Of a stretch of DNA of 37,635 bases, positions 4,703 to 37,182 are shown one piece after another; the stretch's first letter is position 1, and each line of letters starts with the position of its first letter. The position numbers were made by a program, and so were the translations under genes. Source of the stretch: Candidatus Kapaibacterium sp. (lineage in GTDB: Bacteria > Bacteroidota > Ignavibacteria > Kapaibacteriales > NICIL-2); assembly GCA_016788605.1 (NCBI GenBank), contig JAEUSO010000003.1:1-37635 (forward strand). Direction: 5' to 3'. The notes beneath the pieces are model-generated. The model made no database searches. It was not told where the DNA came from and worked only from the letters and a program-made list of their open reading frames with translations.

Positions 4703-4826
4703 AGTTGAGTCCTTGAGTAAGATAGTGATGCGGCAGCGCAGCGCACTGCCAAAGAGTTATCGTGTGTTGTGTTGATGCAAACCATGCAATCCATCCGACA
4801 ACGCTTGCCGCAGCCGTATGGTTTCC

Positions 4827-4834
4827 CAAAAATA
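4827..4834 (-). promoter_or_regulatory. Bacteroidota-type -7 box of gdhA
   Basis: Minus-strand TATTTTTG, an exact TAnnTTTG match, about 125 bases upstream of the gdhA start and inside an imperfect ATGGT...ACCAT inverted repeat. The 208-base gap 4703-4910 holds no gene. Confidence 0.4.
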
Positions 4835-4910
4835 CCATCAAGTGCAAGGGCGGCGCAAAATGTTTCGGAATGTATGCGGAGGAATGTCCGACGATGTATG
4901 GCAGCACGCC

Positions 4911-5789
4911 TTACCGGAACAGAATACCGATGCAAAGCAACACGCCAAACACCACGAGCAACTTTCCCGTACCGGCAAGGACGGCATTCAGTTCGGCACC
5001 GCTGCTTCTGCGAAGCGAGTTCCACAAACGAAGTGCGAGCGGCAGCGTCAGTAACGGCAGCAGCATAAACCATGATTGCGAGGTTGCAGCCAAGCCCGCC
5101 GCCACAACGTAGGAACAGCAAAGCAGAATGCCAAAGAGTGTTTCCGCACGCGGGCGACCTAACCGCACGGCAAGAGTCATCTTGCCAACACGGGCATCAG
5201 TTTCTCTATCGCGGATGTTGTTCACACCAAGGATATTCGCCGCAAAGAAGCCGGGTATCAGCGATGAAATCAGCACGTCGGCTCTGAACTCTTGCATCTG
5301 GGCATAATATGCCCCGCACACCGGTATAATCCCAAAAAAGAGCAAGGCGAAAACATCGCCCAATCCGCGGTAGGCAAGCGGATAGGGTCCGCTGGTGTAA
5401 GCATACGCAAAGAAGAGCGATGCACAGCCGATGGCGAAAATGACCCAGCCCGCGTGTGCCACAATCAGCATCCCCGCGCAGAAAACAACGGCGGCAAGAA
5501 GAAGCGAGGAACGCTTCATTGCTTGCGGACTGATGATGCCGCTCGAGACGGCGCGCTGCGGACCGGTGCGGTCGGGAGTATCCGCCCCGCGCTTGTAATC
5601 GCCGAGTTCGTTGGTAAAGTTGGCAAGGATTTGCAAGCCCACAGCGCAGAACAGCGTAAGCAACGCAACAGGTGTTGAATAAGGCGGCTCGGCTCCCGAA
5701 TTGCGGTACGCATACGCAAGGGCAATCAGCACGGGAACCGCACTTGCCGGAAGTGTTTTGGGGCGGGTGGCTGCAAGCCAAGCGTTCAT
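4911..5789 (-). CDS. menA: 1,4-dihydroxy-2-naphthoate polyprenyltransferase MenA
   Basis: An integral membrane UbiA-family prenyltransferase that attaches a polyprenyl chain to 1,4-dihydroxy-2-naphthoate, the membrane-committing step of menaquinone synthesis. It is 292 residues, the usual length, with about eight or nine hydrophobic segments. The first Asp-rich motif is visible around residues 60-80 ('NFTNELGDYKRGADTPDRTGPQRAV'-type region), and the second as 'NNIRDRETDARVGKMTLAVRLG' near 190-210, with the Asp residues that bind Mg-diphosphate. It starts 4 bases after the stop of the upstream MoxR-type ATPase gene, so the two are almost certainly cotranscribed. No other men gene is in the window. 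Presence of MenA indicates menaquinone-based respiration. Confidence 0.92.
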   Translation of the reverse strand: MNAWLAATRPKTLPASAVPVLIALAYAYRNSGAEPPYSTPVALLTLFCAVGLQILANFTNELGDYKRGADTPDRTGPQRAVSSGIISPQAMKRSSLLLAAVVFCAGMLIVAHAGWVIFAIGCASLFFAYAYTSGPYPLAYRGLGDVFALLFFGIIPVCGAYYAQMQEFRADVLISSLIPGFFAANILGVNNIRDRETDARVGKMTLAVRLGRPRAETLFGILLCCSYVVAAGLAATSQSWFMLLPLLTLPLALRLWNSLRRSSGAELNAVLAGTGKLLVVFGVLLCIGILFR

Positions 5790-5793
5790 GCGG

Positions 5794-7134
5794 TCAGGAT
5801 GCCGTTTGTTGTGTGCGGTTGCGGCGTTCTTCTTCGCGTTCGCGTTCGCGCTCCACTTGCTGGAAGACGCGCGTCATGGATTGCTCCACCGATACTTTCA
5901 GTTCGCGCACTTCATCGCACGACGGCACAAACTCCTGAATGAACTGCTCTAATGCGCGGCGGTTTTGCGCTATGGTTTTGTCCGCTCCGCCAAAGGTTTC
6001 CTTAAACCAGTCCACAAACGTCCGGCGCATGGGATTCTGGCTGAACTCGCCAAGCGGTTGGTCGAGCAAGCTGCGGTCGTCGCGGATGTGTTGCAGCAGC
6101 GTCTCGAAAGCAAGCAACGCGGCAATCTGCTCGAAGCCGTTCGAGGAAACAAGCGAGTTCTGCACTGTCTGAAATGCTTTTTTGTAGAGCGCGATGTCTT
6201 CGGGCACGCCAACGGTGGCAAAGATGAAGTAGAGTTTGCTGATGTCCTCGTGCGTGACGTTGGTTCGCGCCCGCAATACCGCCAATGCCCGCAGCAGGTC
6301 GAGCGACTTTGCCTGTGTGCGCGGTGATATGTAGAAGTCCGTGTACTGCGCGGTGGACTGCCCTTTGTGCGATTCGCGGAGTGCGCGGTTGCGAAGGAAC
6401 TCGAAGTGGCGGATAACGAGGTTGGTGAAGTACAGGTCTTCGGGCTTGATATTGATGGAGTACCCTGCGTCGTAGCCGGTAATAATGCCGTGCATCATTT
6501 TCAGTTCGGTGAAGGGAATCTTGGCGGGCGGCTCAATCGTCCTGCCGCCGTGCTGCATATACTTTTGTGCGATACGGTATTGGTTGAACGGCTCTTTGTC
6601 GGGCAGGATAAGTGCTTTGTACATGAAGCGGTCGAGCAATGCCTCGGTTACTTCGCTGACGCGCAGGTAGTTGGTGGCGGCAATCACTGTGTGGAGTTCC
6701 GAGGGTTCGTTTTGCACACCGCGAATAAGCCGGCGTTCATTGAGCAGCGAGAGCAGTGCGCGGAGCGTGAAGTCGTTTGCATCGAAAATCTCGTCAATGA
6801 ATCCGAACTCGCTTTCCACGAGCGAGCCGGTGGTGTTGTGGCGGATGATGCCGGACTTGAGTTCCTCGATGTTCAATCCGCCGAAGTAGGTATCGGGCTG
6901 CTGCTCTTTGCTTGCTTGCACGCGGAAGATTTTCGCGCCCGAAAACATCCCGAATATCTGCTCGGCAAGAAGTGTCTTTCCCACACCGGTGCGGCTTTGC
7001 AGCAGCACGTGCTCGCCCGTAAGCAGCGCGCAAAACGCTTGTTCAATCACCTCTTCGCGGTTAATCACCCGCTGACCGATGAATGCAGCGGCATTCTTCA
7101 ACTTCATCGCTATTTCTTCGATGGACATCCCCAT
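5794..7134 (-). CDS. MoxR/RavA-type AAA+ ATPase
   Basis: A 446-residue AAA+ ATPase of the MoxR branch. Walker A is SRTGVGKT (47-54), Walker B is FGFIDEIF (110-117), and 'ALLSLLNERRL' plus 'VIAATNYL' supply the sensor region. It continues with an extra helical region and a charged coiled-coil tail ('EREREREEERR'). MoxR ATPases usually act as chaperones that insert cofactors or assemble complexes, working with a VWA-domain partner. RavA-like length and the long C-terminal part suggest that subgroup. No VWA gene is adjacent; the neighbour is menA, 4 bases downstream, so this pair forms an operon. An alternative start two codons in (MSIEEIAMKL) is possible. A TATTTTTC sequence about 75 bases upstream is a near-match promoter box. 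Target unknown. Confidence 0.85.
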   Translation of the reverse strand: MGMSIEEIAMKLKNAAAFIGQRVINREEVIEQAFCALLTGEHVLLQSRTGVGKTLLAEQIFGMFSGAKIFRVQASKEQQPDTYFGGLNIEELKSGIIRHNTTGSLVESEFGFIDEIFDANDFTLRALLSLLNERRLIRGVQNEPSELHTVIAATNYLRVSEVTEALLDRFMYKALILPDKEPFNQYRIAQKYMQHGGRTIEPPAKIPFTELKMMHGIITGYDAGYSINIKPEDLYFTNLVIRHFEFLRNRALRESHKGQSTAQYTDFYISPRTQAKSLDLLRALAVLRARTNVTHEDISKLYFIFATVGVPEDIALYKKAFQTVQNSLVSSNGFEQIAALLAFETLLQHIRDDRSLLDQPLGEFSQNPMRRTFVDWFKETFGGADKTIAQNRRALEQFIQEFVPSCDEVRELKVSVEQSMTRVFQQVEREREREEERRNRTQQTAS

Positions 7135-25755: not shown

Positions 25756-27794
25756 TACATATTCCTCCGGTACTGACCGCCAACCTGATAGAGTGCCTGA
25801 CTCATTTGTCCGAGTGAGCAGACCTTAGCGGATTCCATCAATGCCTCGAAGATATTGCCATTGAGAATAGCGGTTTGCTTGAGTGCTTTCAGTGCGCTGG
25901 ATGACGTATCGCTATTACGGTTTTGCACGGCACGGAGATTGGAAATCTGTTGATTCTTTTCCTCAGTGGTTGAGCGGATAACTTCTTGCGGGATGATAGT
26001 TGGAGAACCCTTGCTGGAAAGGAATGTATTCACACCAATGATTGGATATTCGCCCGTGTGCTTTTGCATCTCGTAGTAGAGCGATTCTTCCTGAATCTTG
26101 TTGCGCTGGTACATCATTTCCATTGCACCAAGCACGCCGCCGCGCTCGGTAATCCGGTTGAACTCCGCATACACAGATTCTTCCACAAGGTCGGTCAGTT
26201 CTTCAATAATAAACGAACCTTGCAACGGATTCTCGTTCTTTGCCAAACCAAGCTCGCGGTTGATGATTAGTTGAATTGCCACAGCACGGCGAACCGATTC
26301 TTCGGTCGGTGTTGTAATCGCTTCGTCATAAGCGTTGGTGTGGAGCGAATTACAGTTATCATAAATTGCGTAGAGTGCTTGCAGTGTTGTTCGGATGTCG
26401 TTGAAGTCAATCTCCTGTGCATGAAGCGAGCGACCCGACGTTTGAATATGATATTTAAGCATCTGAGAACGCTCGTTGCCACCATATTTATTTTTCATTG
26501 CTTTCGCCCAAATGCGTCGCGCCACACGACCAATTACTGCATATTCGGGGTCAATGCCATTAGAGAAAAAGAACGAAAGATTCGGCGCAAAGTCGTCAAT
26601 ATGCATCCCGCGTGAAAGGTAGTATTCCACAAAGGTAAATCCATTGGCAAGTGTCAGTGCAAGTTGCGTAATCGGGTTTGCACCTGCCTCAGCAATATGA
26701 TAACCACTTATAGAAACAGAATAGAAATTCCGTACTTTCTTTTCGATAAAATACTGCTGAATATCACCCATCATACGGAGGGCAAACTCCGTTGAAAATA
26801 TACATGTGTTTTGTGCTTGGTCTTCTTTCAGAATGTCGGCTTGAACCGTGCCGCGTACAGATTGCAGTGCTTTTTCTTTGCATTGTGCATACACATCAGC
26901 CGGGAGCACTTGGTCGCCTGTTACACCAAGAAGCATTAAGCCAAGCCCATTATTACCATCTGGTAGAGTATCAACGCCATCACCTGCGGCTATGTTGTTG
27001 TAATGCGGACGCGATAATCCTTTAGCTGAATAGATTGCATCAATCTTAGTATTGATTTCGTCGGTCAAGTTGTGTTCGCGGATATATTTCTCGCATTCTT
27101 GGTCTATAGCGGCATTCATAAAGAAGGCAAGGAGCATCGGTGCCGGACCATTGATGGTCATAGATACGGAAGTTGTAGGCGAACTGAGGTCAAAACCTGA
27201 ATAGAGTTTCTTCGCATCATCAAGTGTGGCAATACTCACACCGGAGTTACCAATTTTGCCATAGATGTCGGGTCTCTCATCTGGGTCTTCACCATACAGA
27301 GTAACTGAGTCAAACGCAGTACTCAAGCGGGCGGCAGGCATTCCTTGACTAAGGTAGTGGAAGCGTTTGTTTGTTCGTTCCGGTCCGCCTTCGCCGGCGA
27401 ACATTCGTGTTGGGTCTTCACCCTGACGCTTGAATGGATAAACGCCTGATGTGTAGGGAAATTCACCCGGAAAATTTTCTTGCATAGCCCAACGCACAAT
27501 CTCACCCCAATCTTCAAATTTGGGTACAGCTATTTTGGGTATCTGCGAGTGCGAAAGTGATTCGATAAAGTTCTTCACTTTAATCTCTTTCCCACGAACG
27601 GAATAGGTGAAATTCTCGCCTTGATAATTAGCTTTCTTGATTTCCCATTCATCAAGCAGACGCTTCACTTCAGGGCGTAAGTGTTGCACTAATTCCTGAT
27701 AACGTTTCACAAGTTCAGCTTGTGCAACTGTTTGCTTGCCCGAAGCATGCCCGTTAAGTTCGGTGATTCTGTGTTGTTCGAGTGTTGTGTTCAT
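25755..27794 (-). CDS. Acyl-CoA mutase, IcmF-type catalytic subunit without B12 and GTPase domains
   Basis: A 679-residue adenosylcobalamin-dependent mutase catalytic chain. Its pattern follows the C-terminal mutase of IcmF (fused isobutyryl-CoA mutase): the IcmF linker at about 25-95, then '[23 protein letters not shown]', '[12 protein letters not shown]', '[14 protein letters not shown]', '[23 protein letters not shown]', '[16 protein letters not shown]' and the ending 'VGGQYRRNM'. Q328, where methylmalonyl-CoA mutase has Arg, points to a non-carboxylated substrate such as isobutyryl-CoA; Y119 occupies the other specificity position. IcmF normally carries a B12-binding domain and a MeaI-like GTPase before this region; both are absent and no such gene is adjacent. 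The start overlaps the DUF2442 stop (ATGA), which implies translational coupling. Confidence 0.85.
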
Positions 27795-28081
27795 TGAGAT
27801 TGTGTCTGTGTGTTTTGTAGTTGAAGTTGCTGATACAGCCAGTCGGCGCAGGCATCGGGACGCTCAAGTTCGGGAGCGTCTATATCCCACGTCAGCACTG
27901 TGCCATACTGCTCGATAATGACTTTGCTAAATTCTTGCGGATTGGCAATACGTGCAAAAACACCATGACCGATGTCGGATGCAAACGATATATCACCTGA
28001 TACGCCGTCATTGAATACAACCCGAACCCGATAGTCAGGGAGGGATTCCGCACTGTGCAGGATATGATAATCATGGTTCAT
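27791..28081 (-). CDS. DUF2442 protein
   Basis: A 96-residue protein of the DUF2442 family: '[33 protein letters not shown]' is the usual N-terminal pattern, with '[30 protein letters not shown]', which carries the conserved 'G.l.W.....l..d.L' segment. Function unknown. DUF2442 genes commonly follow DUF4160 genes, as here, and the pair has been regarded as toxin-antitoxin-like; that is inference. It overlaps the upstream gene by 4 bases and the downstream mutase gene by 4 bases (ATGA at both junctions), which is unusual for a pair of accessory genes next to a metabolic enzyme. Confidence 0.8.
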
Positions 28082-28341
28082 TGATCCAAACCCCGAATAG
28101 TAAAAAGTGGTTCTTTACGGGAACGTCGTTCCCAATTATCACGTAATTCTTCCGTATGTAGCATAGTCCATTCAATGACTAATGAGAGAACACGAGGCGG
28201 TAAAGAACCGGCAAGAACAGTTATCGGGTCAAATCCAATAGTCGCTCTATGTTCGCCATACCATGCCTCGAAATGGGGAGGATTATGGTCATTAAAATTC
28301 ATGAGTATTTTAATTCCGAAAAAATATGCTATCTGCGGCAT
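28078..28341 (-). CDS. DUF4160 protein
   Basis: An 87-residue protein of the DUF4160 family, recognised by 'YFFGIKILMNFNDHNPPHFEAWYGEHRATIGFD', which contains the near-invariant 'D..PPHFH..YGe..a.i' segment (here HNPPHFEAWYGEHRA), and 'LSLVIEWTMLHTEELRDNWERRS' in the C-terminal helix. Function unknown; usually partnered with DUF2442, which follows with a 4-base overlap. An exact -7 box lies about 65 bases upstream, so this gene heads the three-gene transcript with the mutase. Confidence 0.82.
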   Translation of the reverse strand: MPQIAYFFGIKILMNFNDHNPPHFEAWYGEHRATIGFDPITVLAGSLPPRVLSLVIEWTMLHTEELRDNWERRSRKEPLFTIRGLDQ

Positions 28342-34290: not shown

Positions 34291-34851
34291 ATGAAACTCT
34301 ACGTAAAGAACATGGTATGTAACCGATGCAAACTGATTGTCCAGCAAGTATTGGAGAAGTCAGGCGTTTTACCATTGAGCGTCACGCTAGGAGAAGTTAT
34401 TGTAGAAGAGGAACTGAGCAATAGTGAAAAACTGATTCTTGATTCTCAATTACAAAAATTCGGTTTTTTACTTATCGAAGATAAATCTATCAGAATGGTC
34501 AGTCAGATCAAGTGCTTGATTATTGAATTGGTGCACTATCGTAATAATTCACTTAATGGAAAATTATCCGAATATTTAAGCCATACTCTTCATCATGATT
34601 ATACACATCTCTCCAATCTCTTTTCGGATATTGAGCATATCACTATCGAACGATATTACATAACACAGAAAATTGAAAAAGTAAAAGAACTATTGGTATA
34701 TGACGAGCTGTCACTTTCAGAAATAGCATACCGCCTGAACTACTCGAGTGTTGCACATCTAAGCAATCAATTCAAAAAGATAACAGGTTATACGCCAACA
34801 CACTTCAAAAATACACGTACAAAAGACCGCAGGACATTAGATGAGATTTAA
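34291..34851 (+). CDS. AraC-family regulator with HMA-like metal-sensing N-terminus
   Basis: A 186-residue regulator. The N-terminus 'MKLYVKNMVCNRCK' has a CxxC motif (C10, C13) in the position of the metal site of heavy-metal-associated (HMA) domains, and residues 1-65 fit the ferredoxin-like HMA pattern. Residues about 95-173 hold an AraC-type DNA-binding domain with two HTH units: 'LSHTLHHDYTHLSNLFSDIEHITIERY' and 'LSLSEIAYRLNYSSVAHLSNQFKKITGYTPTHF'. I recall such small HMA-AraC proteins from Bacteroidota metal-resistance clusters. Here it precedes a multicopper oxidase, so copper or another soft metal is the likely signal. Codon usage is AT-rich, unlike the operon to its left. It probably controls the downstream genes; direct evidence is lacking. 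Confidence 0.88.
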   Translation: MKLYVKNMVCNRCKLIVQQVLEKSGVLPLSVTLGEVIVEEELSNSEKLILDSQLQKFGFLLIEDKSIRMVSQIKCLIIELVHYRNNSLNGKLSEYLSHTLHHDYTHLSNLFSDIEHITIERYYITQKIEKVKELLVYDELSLSEIAYRLNYSSVAHLSNQFKKITGYTPTHFKNTRTKDRRTLDEI

Positions 34852-36516: not shown

Positions 36517-37182
36517 ATGAAAACACTTGTACTCAAGACAAACATAAATTGTGGGAGTTGTGTAGCTAAAGTAACTCCATTTTTAAATGACAACCCTTCA
36601 ATTCAGAATTGGGTAATAGATACCCAAAATCCTGATAAAATCTTAACCATCAATGGTCAAGTTTCTGAAAACCAAATTATAGAATTGATAACAAAAGCTG
36701 GTTTCACAGTAAAAAAAACTTATGATAGCAGCCCTAATGCTGACTTTTGGCATGATACTACTGTATGGAGAAAAGCAAGTTTTAACACGTTAAATTGCTT
36801 AATTGGCTGTTCTATAGGCGACTTTGGTATGATTATATATTTGCAAGTATACCATCATTATTGTCCTATGTGGCTTTCTATGCTTTTAGCTATCATTGCA
36901 GGGTTATTCACTTCCATTTTATTGGAAACCGCAATTTTATACTACAAAGAAAAGTTGACTTGGACACAGTCTTTGCAAATGGCTTTGGGAATGTCCTTAA
37001 TTTCTATGATCGCTATGGAAATAGCAATGAATATCACTGACTTTATGCTCACAGGCGGAAAAGCAGATTTTCATTCGCACACCTATTGGCTTGCCTTTGG
37101 TTTTGCCCTCATTGCAGGTTTTTTTGCACCACTTCCTTACAATTATTTTAAACTCAAAAAATATAACAAATCCTGTCATTAA
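36517..37182 (+). CDS. HMA-DUF4396 fusion membrane protein
   Basis: A 221-residue protein in two parts. Residues 1-70 are an HMA metallochaperone domain with C12 and C15 ('NINCGSCVAKVTPFL'). Residues about 88-215 are a DUF4396-type membrane domain with about four hydrophobic segments, recognised by 'NTLNCLIGCSIGDFGMIIYL', 'LQMALGMSLISMIAMEIAMNITDFML' and 'YWLAFGFALIAGFFAPLPYNYF'. HMA domains pass copper between proteins, so this fusion would deliver metal to, or receive it from, a membrane module of unknown activity. The last residues include K-S-C-H. It lies 29 bases after the oxidase gene and overlaps the next start by one base (TAATG), so the three are an operon. AT-rich. Confidence 0.8.
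   Translation: MKTLVLKTNINCGSCVAKVTPFLNDNPSIQNWVIDTQNPDKILTINGQVSENQIIELITKAGFTVKKTYDSSPNADFWHDTTVWRKASFNTLNCLIGCSIGDFGMIIYLQVYHHYCPMWLSMLLAIIAGLFTSILLETAILYYKEKLTWTQSLQMALGMSLISMIAMEIAMNITDFMLTGGKADFHSHTYWLAFGFALIAGFFAPLPYNYFKLKKYNKSCH

Follow-up and report, generated by a model that had tools for sequence, protein, structure and literature searches.

An HMA-DUF4396 fusion protein of Bacteroidota with a probable role in copper handling

In Escherichia coli, the P-type Cu(I) ATPase CopA, which combines an N-terminal HMA domain with a membrane part bearing a Cys pair, is the partner of CueO, and both proteins are under the joint control of CueR. Small membrane proteins with a comparable Cys pair are known from mercury uptake: in MerT and MerE, the pair lies in helix 1 and is required for transport, and MerT works with the HMA protein MerP (PMC5715351). 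DUF4396 (PF14342) has so far been described as a Pfam family, and one passing mention places it at the border of a metal-resistance island (PMC7760498). Our literature search, which covered few subscription journals, found no function assigned to it, and a previous sequence-only reading of the locus studied here had likewise given none for its fusion to an HMA domain. Here, we link DUF4396 to copper.

The window, a stretch of 37,635 nucleotides from Candidatus Kapaibacterium sp., contains a gene that the sequence-only reading had described as joining a CxxC-bearing HMA domain to a DUF4396 membrane domain (Table 1). A Pfam search placed both domains above their gathering cut-offs. HMA (PF00403) scored 26.5 bits (cut-off, 24.8), with the CxxC present at C12 and C15 in the context NINCGSC, and DUF4396 scored 131.2 bits (cut-off, 27; E = 4.7e-38) over profile positions 2 to 141 of 141, making the membrane part a full-length family member. 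No other Pfam family exceeded its cut-off in the fusion protein. According to the same reading, the idea would fall if the membrane part belonged to a non-metal transporter family; no such match was found.

The fusion gene lies in an operon-like run in the order AraC-type regulator, CueO-like multicopper oxidase (MCO), HMA-DUF4396, and a weak second DUF4396 gene. The upstream gene, which had been read as a copper oxidase, is indeed an MCO by Pfam. CueO was its best named family, but its score of 355 bits is under the 525 cut-off of the CueO model, and we therefore call it CueO-like rather than CueO; solved multicopper oxidases matched its product down to 1e-106. The overlap with a second such membrane gene also held, as the stop codon TAA of the fusion and the next ATG share one base (TAATG). 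This second gene is a marginal DUF4396 member (27.5 bits; cut-off, 27) and is related to the first (E = 1e-4 over 94 residues); a search of 198 Bacteroidota genomes turned up no close relative. The window spans contig C333 in full, so that this gene breaks off at the contig end before any stop codon. Beyond what had been read before, the regulator has a CxxC module of its own at its N terminus (MKLYVKNMVCNRC), which Pfam does not call HMA and which CopZ-type models match weakly (NCBIfam). A promoter scan returned 14 sites versus 13.9 expected.

Table 1. Features of the operon-like run and of the fusion gene in the window
Feature	Position	Strand	Basis or remark
AraC-type regulator, 186 aa, N-terminal CxxC module MKLYVKNMVCNRC	34291..34851	+	HTH_18, E 6.1e-15
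CueO-like multicopper oxidase (MCO), 501 aa	34982..36487	+	three Cu-oxidase Pfam domains
HMA-DUF4396 fusion gene, 221 aa, ATG to TAA	36517..37182	+	Pfam, AlphaFold2, relatives
HMA domain of fusion	36541-36705	+	residues 9-63
CxxC of HMA domain (C12-G-S-C15), putative metal-binding motif	36550..36561	+	sequence; kept in all intact fusions
DUF4396 domain of fusion	36766-37170	+	residues 84-218
C94-L-I-G-C98, membrane helix 1 of fusion	36796..36810	+	conservation across all subfamilies
M164-I-A-M167-E168, membrane helix 3 of fusion	37006..37020	+	invariant in 43-member subfamily
Second, divergent DUF4396-like membrane gene, His-rich loop	37182..37634	+	marginal Pfam match; runs off contig end

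The run occupies an AT-rich arm of the contig (34245-37635), also absent from the earlier reading. Directly behind a paaZ-like gene, near 34.25 kb, GC content decreases sharply (about 55% to 35%), and GC3 is 0.31 to 0.38 in the four operon genes versus 0.55 to 0.64 in three genes sampled elsewhere in the window. The tetranucleotide use of the arm is nearer to that of a Cytophagales contig (L022; 0.75) than to that of the remaining window (0.06). These data are compatible with island acquisition as well as with a chimeric join. We consider it possible, although on the unlikely side, that the arm is a misjoined piece from another organism and foreign to this genome. Such an error would agree with the composition and with the nearest fusion relatives being from Cytophagales, and the source genome, a MAG that is 91% complete, is split into 606 contigs; however, another contig of the same genome also mixes GC, from 38% to 51%, as acquired islands would. 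A misjoin, even if real, would leave the existence of the fusion untouched, since the fusion occurs in other genomes.

A genome scan recovered full-length relatives of the fusion in two Cytophagales MAGs (L022 and L023; 76% and 68-69% identity), and HMA-DUF4396 fusions were found at at least 16 loci in several Bacteroidota families. The recurrence of the same two-domain protein in these MAGs and families indicates that the fusion is not a chance event. A search of 396 genomes across the phylum identified fusions in seven genomes of family f42 and in G195, which belongs to a different family, and further ones were present among 195 genomes of the order of L022 (L128-L131, L136). DUF4396 itself is rare in Bacteroidota (13/396 genomes above cut-off), and nine of those 13 genomes have the HMA fusion, whereas outside this phylum the domain is mostly standalone or joined to other partners. 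All intact fusions retain the CxxC, as NINCGxC, GMxCxxC, or similar. In a tree of DUF4396 domains, 24 standalone proteins formed a single clade (support, 100/100) with the fused proteins outside it. Only three proteins counted as unfused mixed with the fused ones: L132 has a shortened HMA domain, L134 is cut by the contig start, and L135 has a Cys-rich N terminus instead. The window protein grouped with L022 and L023, the fork being weakly supported (85/90). Read most simply, this tree points to one gain of the fusion and few losses, although it does not prove such a history. A plasmid search returned matches to the HMA part only, plus two actinobacterial plasmids matching the DUF4396 part, and a phage search gave no matches.

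The fusion had been taken as evidence tying DUF4396 to metal traffic. Its recurrence in several families, together with the MCO fusions and copper neighbors of DUF4396 in other phyla, bears this out, and the "metal" can be specified as copper. Indeed, DUF4396 is tied to copper independently of the HMA fusion, through MCO fusions, a plasmid cluster, its neighbors, and an enrichment of copper genes. Two Pseudomonadota proteins join DUF4396 to an MCO (L108, 5827-7746; L109, 6748-8703), with Asp replacing the second Cys of the pair, and in another Pseudomonadota protein (L116, 7032-8375) a cytochrome c domain stands upstream of DUF4396 in one frame. The Kineococcus plasmid pKRAD01 is annotated with genes in the order metal-sensitive (CsoR-type) regulator, HMA protein, heavy-metal P-type ATPase, and DUF4396; a term search of the Kineococcus copper proteome paper (PMC2928746) returned no mention of this cluster. 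CxxC-AraC regulators, possibly a copper sensor of their own kind, are found near DUF4396 in the window and at six or more other loci, among them L022, L032, L090/L091, L119, and L128. MCO and CopA genes also figure among the neighbors of DUF4396. SCO genes are divergent from DUF4396 at L029 and L036, and a CDF transporter lies downstream of it at L026. At some f42 fusion loci, YHS proteins are the sole copper-type neighbors. After near-duplicate loci had been dropped, copper-class genes amounted to 15/327 within three positions of DUF4396 and 2/442 farther away (p = 1.8e-4), a value to be read as indicative because the classes were assigned by phmmer with self-chosen seeds, some of them from the counted loci themselves. 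TonB receptors follow the fusion at L022, L128, L129, and L134. At L128, the receptor gene (4785-7028) shares 10 bases with the end of the fusion gene.

Structure prediction of the fusion with AlphaFold2 yielded an ATX1-like domain and a helical membrane domain (pLDDT, 89.9), and the membrane domain modeled alone gave a confident helical model (pLDDT, 92.5). When compared to the PDB with Foldseek, the membrane domain had no significant match (best E, 0.79) and the whole fusion had HMA matches only. When the family profile was run against PDB sequences, it likewise matched HMA chains only, including ZntA and MerP, and no DUF4396 structure. Across 42 members drawn from all subfamilies, there is no variation at C94, G97, S163, P207, and N209; 40 of the members have C98 (Asp in the other two), and 36 have M167 and E168. 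Within a 43-member subfamily, M159, M164, M167, E168, and D175 are invariant and a C-terminal Cys-His nearly so. Lysines in the middle loop and in the tail suggest that both protein ends are cytosolic, and the HMA domain and the Cys-His tail would thus share a side with C94/C98.

The fusion has the HMA fold and CxxC of CopZ/ATX1-type chaperones, but its HMA domain is tethered to a membrane domain. The Met that usually stands two places before the first Cys in these chaperones is missing in the window (NINC), while the f42 fusions have GMxC. Like CopA, the fusion has an HMA domain at its N terminus and a Cys pair in its membrane part; it differs in having no ATPase domain, actuator, or CPC motif and in the size of its membrane domain (about 140 residues). 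The P1B ATPase hallmarks DKTGT and the CPC helix are absent from the fusion sequence, which matched no ATPase family. MerT/MerP and MerE resemble it in being small membrane proteins with a helix 1 Cys pair and an HMA partner (PMC5715351), but the fusion has about four membrane helices, different residues, and an HMA domain predicted to be cytosolic. Since the MerT, MerE, and MerF families gave no sequence match at E up to 1, descent from the Mer transporters was rejected.

CopA was called when the copper ATPase model TIGR01511 scored above its curated cut-off (397 bits), as was the case in 183 of 198 Bacteroidota genomes. Among the 13 fusion carriers tested, it was nearly absent, G195 being the only one above the cut-off. 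Within the 198-genome sample, CopA was missing in 4/5 carriers versus 11/193 non-carriers (p = 1e-4), and with eight extra carriers added, in 12/13 versus 11/193 (p = 2e-12); these p values ignore kinship, the background is Bacteroidota rather than Cytophagales, five carriers belong to f42, and several are incomplete MAGs. The P1B ATPase matches that carriers retain score 263 to 371 bits. The one left in the window's own genome adjoins ccoN, those of G135, G278, G856, and G872 are in cbb3-oxidase clusters by our reading of their neighbors, and the match of G829 scores above cut-off with TIGR01512, the cadmium-type model. G187, an f42 genome that does not carry the fusion, has neither CopA above cut-off nor DUF4396, and the absence of CopA in f42 may therefore reflect shared ancestry. 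Kineococcus and both normal-size Pseudomonadota genomes tested have CopA alongside standalone DUF4396. We thus rejected the idea that DUF4396 is a general CopA substitute.

Taken together, the two domains, the conserved fusion, the MCO fusions, the pKRAD01 gene order, the copper neighbors, the conserved C94, C98, M167, and E168, and the scarcity of CopA provide good support for a copper role, and HMA-DUF4396 very probably handles this metal. Membrane transport is likely, since the protein combines a docked chaperone with a small bundle of helices whose soft ligands are conserved. The CueO-like partner and the lack of CopA in most carriers lead us to favor export over import, and we propose copper export only tentatively. 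The HMA CxxC would bind cytoplasmic Cu(I) and hand it to the Cys pair of membrane helix 1 (C94/C98, close to the cytosolic end of the helix), from where copper would move along a putative ligand path past the Met/Glu residues of helix 3 toward the periplasm. There, the co-encoded CueO-like oxidase would turn Cu(I) into Cu(II). The AraC-type regulator with its CxxC module would act as copper sensor and operon activator. HMA-DUF4396 would in this way take, in Bacteroidota carriers, the role that CopA has beside CueO in E. coli. As a whole, an inner-membrane copper handler with a cytosolic chaperone, filling the place of CopA, seems to us about evenly balanced between right and wrong. The further-reaching proposal of an ATPase-free, small helical copper exporter that replaces CopA and on which several Bacteroidota lineages rely is doubtful. 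Several points weigh against our explanation: the fusion has no ATPase domain, nor is an energy coupling known for it, the window HMA domain has no Met before its CxxC, standalone DUF4396 and CopA occur together, CopA may be missing from f42 by common descent, several carriers are incomplete, and some f42 loci have no adjoining copper gene except YHS.

Alternatively, the fusion could import copper and have its receiver built in: DUF4396 would admit Cu(I), and the tethered HMA domain would catch it at the inner face. This would resemble the movement of Hg(II) by MerT and MerP, except that the HMA domain would act on the opposite side of the membrane. The helix 1 Cys pair, required for uptake in MerT/MerE (PMC5715351), would suit this role, and TonB receptors, encoded next to the fusion gene or overlapping it at four loci, could carry copper across the outer membrane. 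We nevertheless regard import as unlikely, as the operon partner in the window resembles CueO, a detoxification enzyme, and the Kineococcus DUF4396 sits in an export-type cluster of regulator, chaperone, and ATPase. Slightly less probable again is a factor that delivers copper to, or assembles, a membrane or periplasmic cuproprotein such as an oxidase or MCO, without bulk transport; the divergent SCO genes, the fusions to MCO and cytochrome c, and the cbb3-type ATPase genes kept by carriers are consistent with it, but the window, L022, and L128 have no fixed oxidase gene beside the fusion. Finally, HMA domains are not confined to copper proteins but serve in Zn, Cd, and Hg proteins as well, as the matches to ZntA and MerP illustrate, which counts against our explanation too, and the CDF gene is found at a single locus (L026). 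That Hg, Ag, Zn, or Cd is moved instead of copper is nonetheless improbable, since an MCO is both neighbor and fusion partner of DUF4396 and SCO and CsoR-type genes adjoin it.

Owing to the conserved HMA fusion, the MCO fusions, and the missing CopA, DUF4396 is a concrete and testable candidate for copper transport, and our data raise the question of how CopA-less Bacteroidota hold cytosolic copper low. If export by HMA-DUF4396 is true, an ATPase-free carrier would join the short list of bacterial copper transporters, and if it replaces CopA, DUF4396 would represent a new class of them.

Another combination of an HMA domain with a small membrane domain was observed at L090 (9816-10610) and L091 (9647-10396), where an HMA-MauE fusion is encoded in a gene run with a CxxC-AraC regulator and a standalone DUF4396; by Pfam, MauE is unrelated to DUF4396. 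Elsewhere in the window, two small overlapping minus-strand genes (27791-28341) look similar to a DUF4160/DUF2442-type pair.
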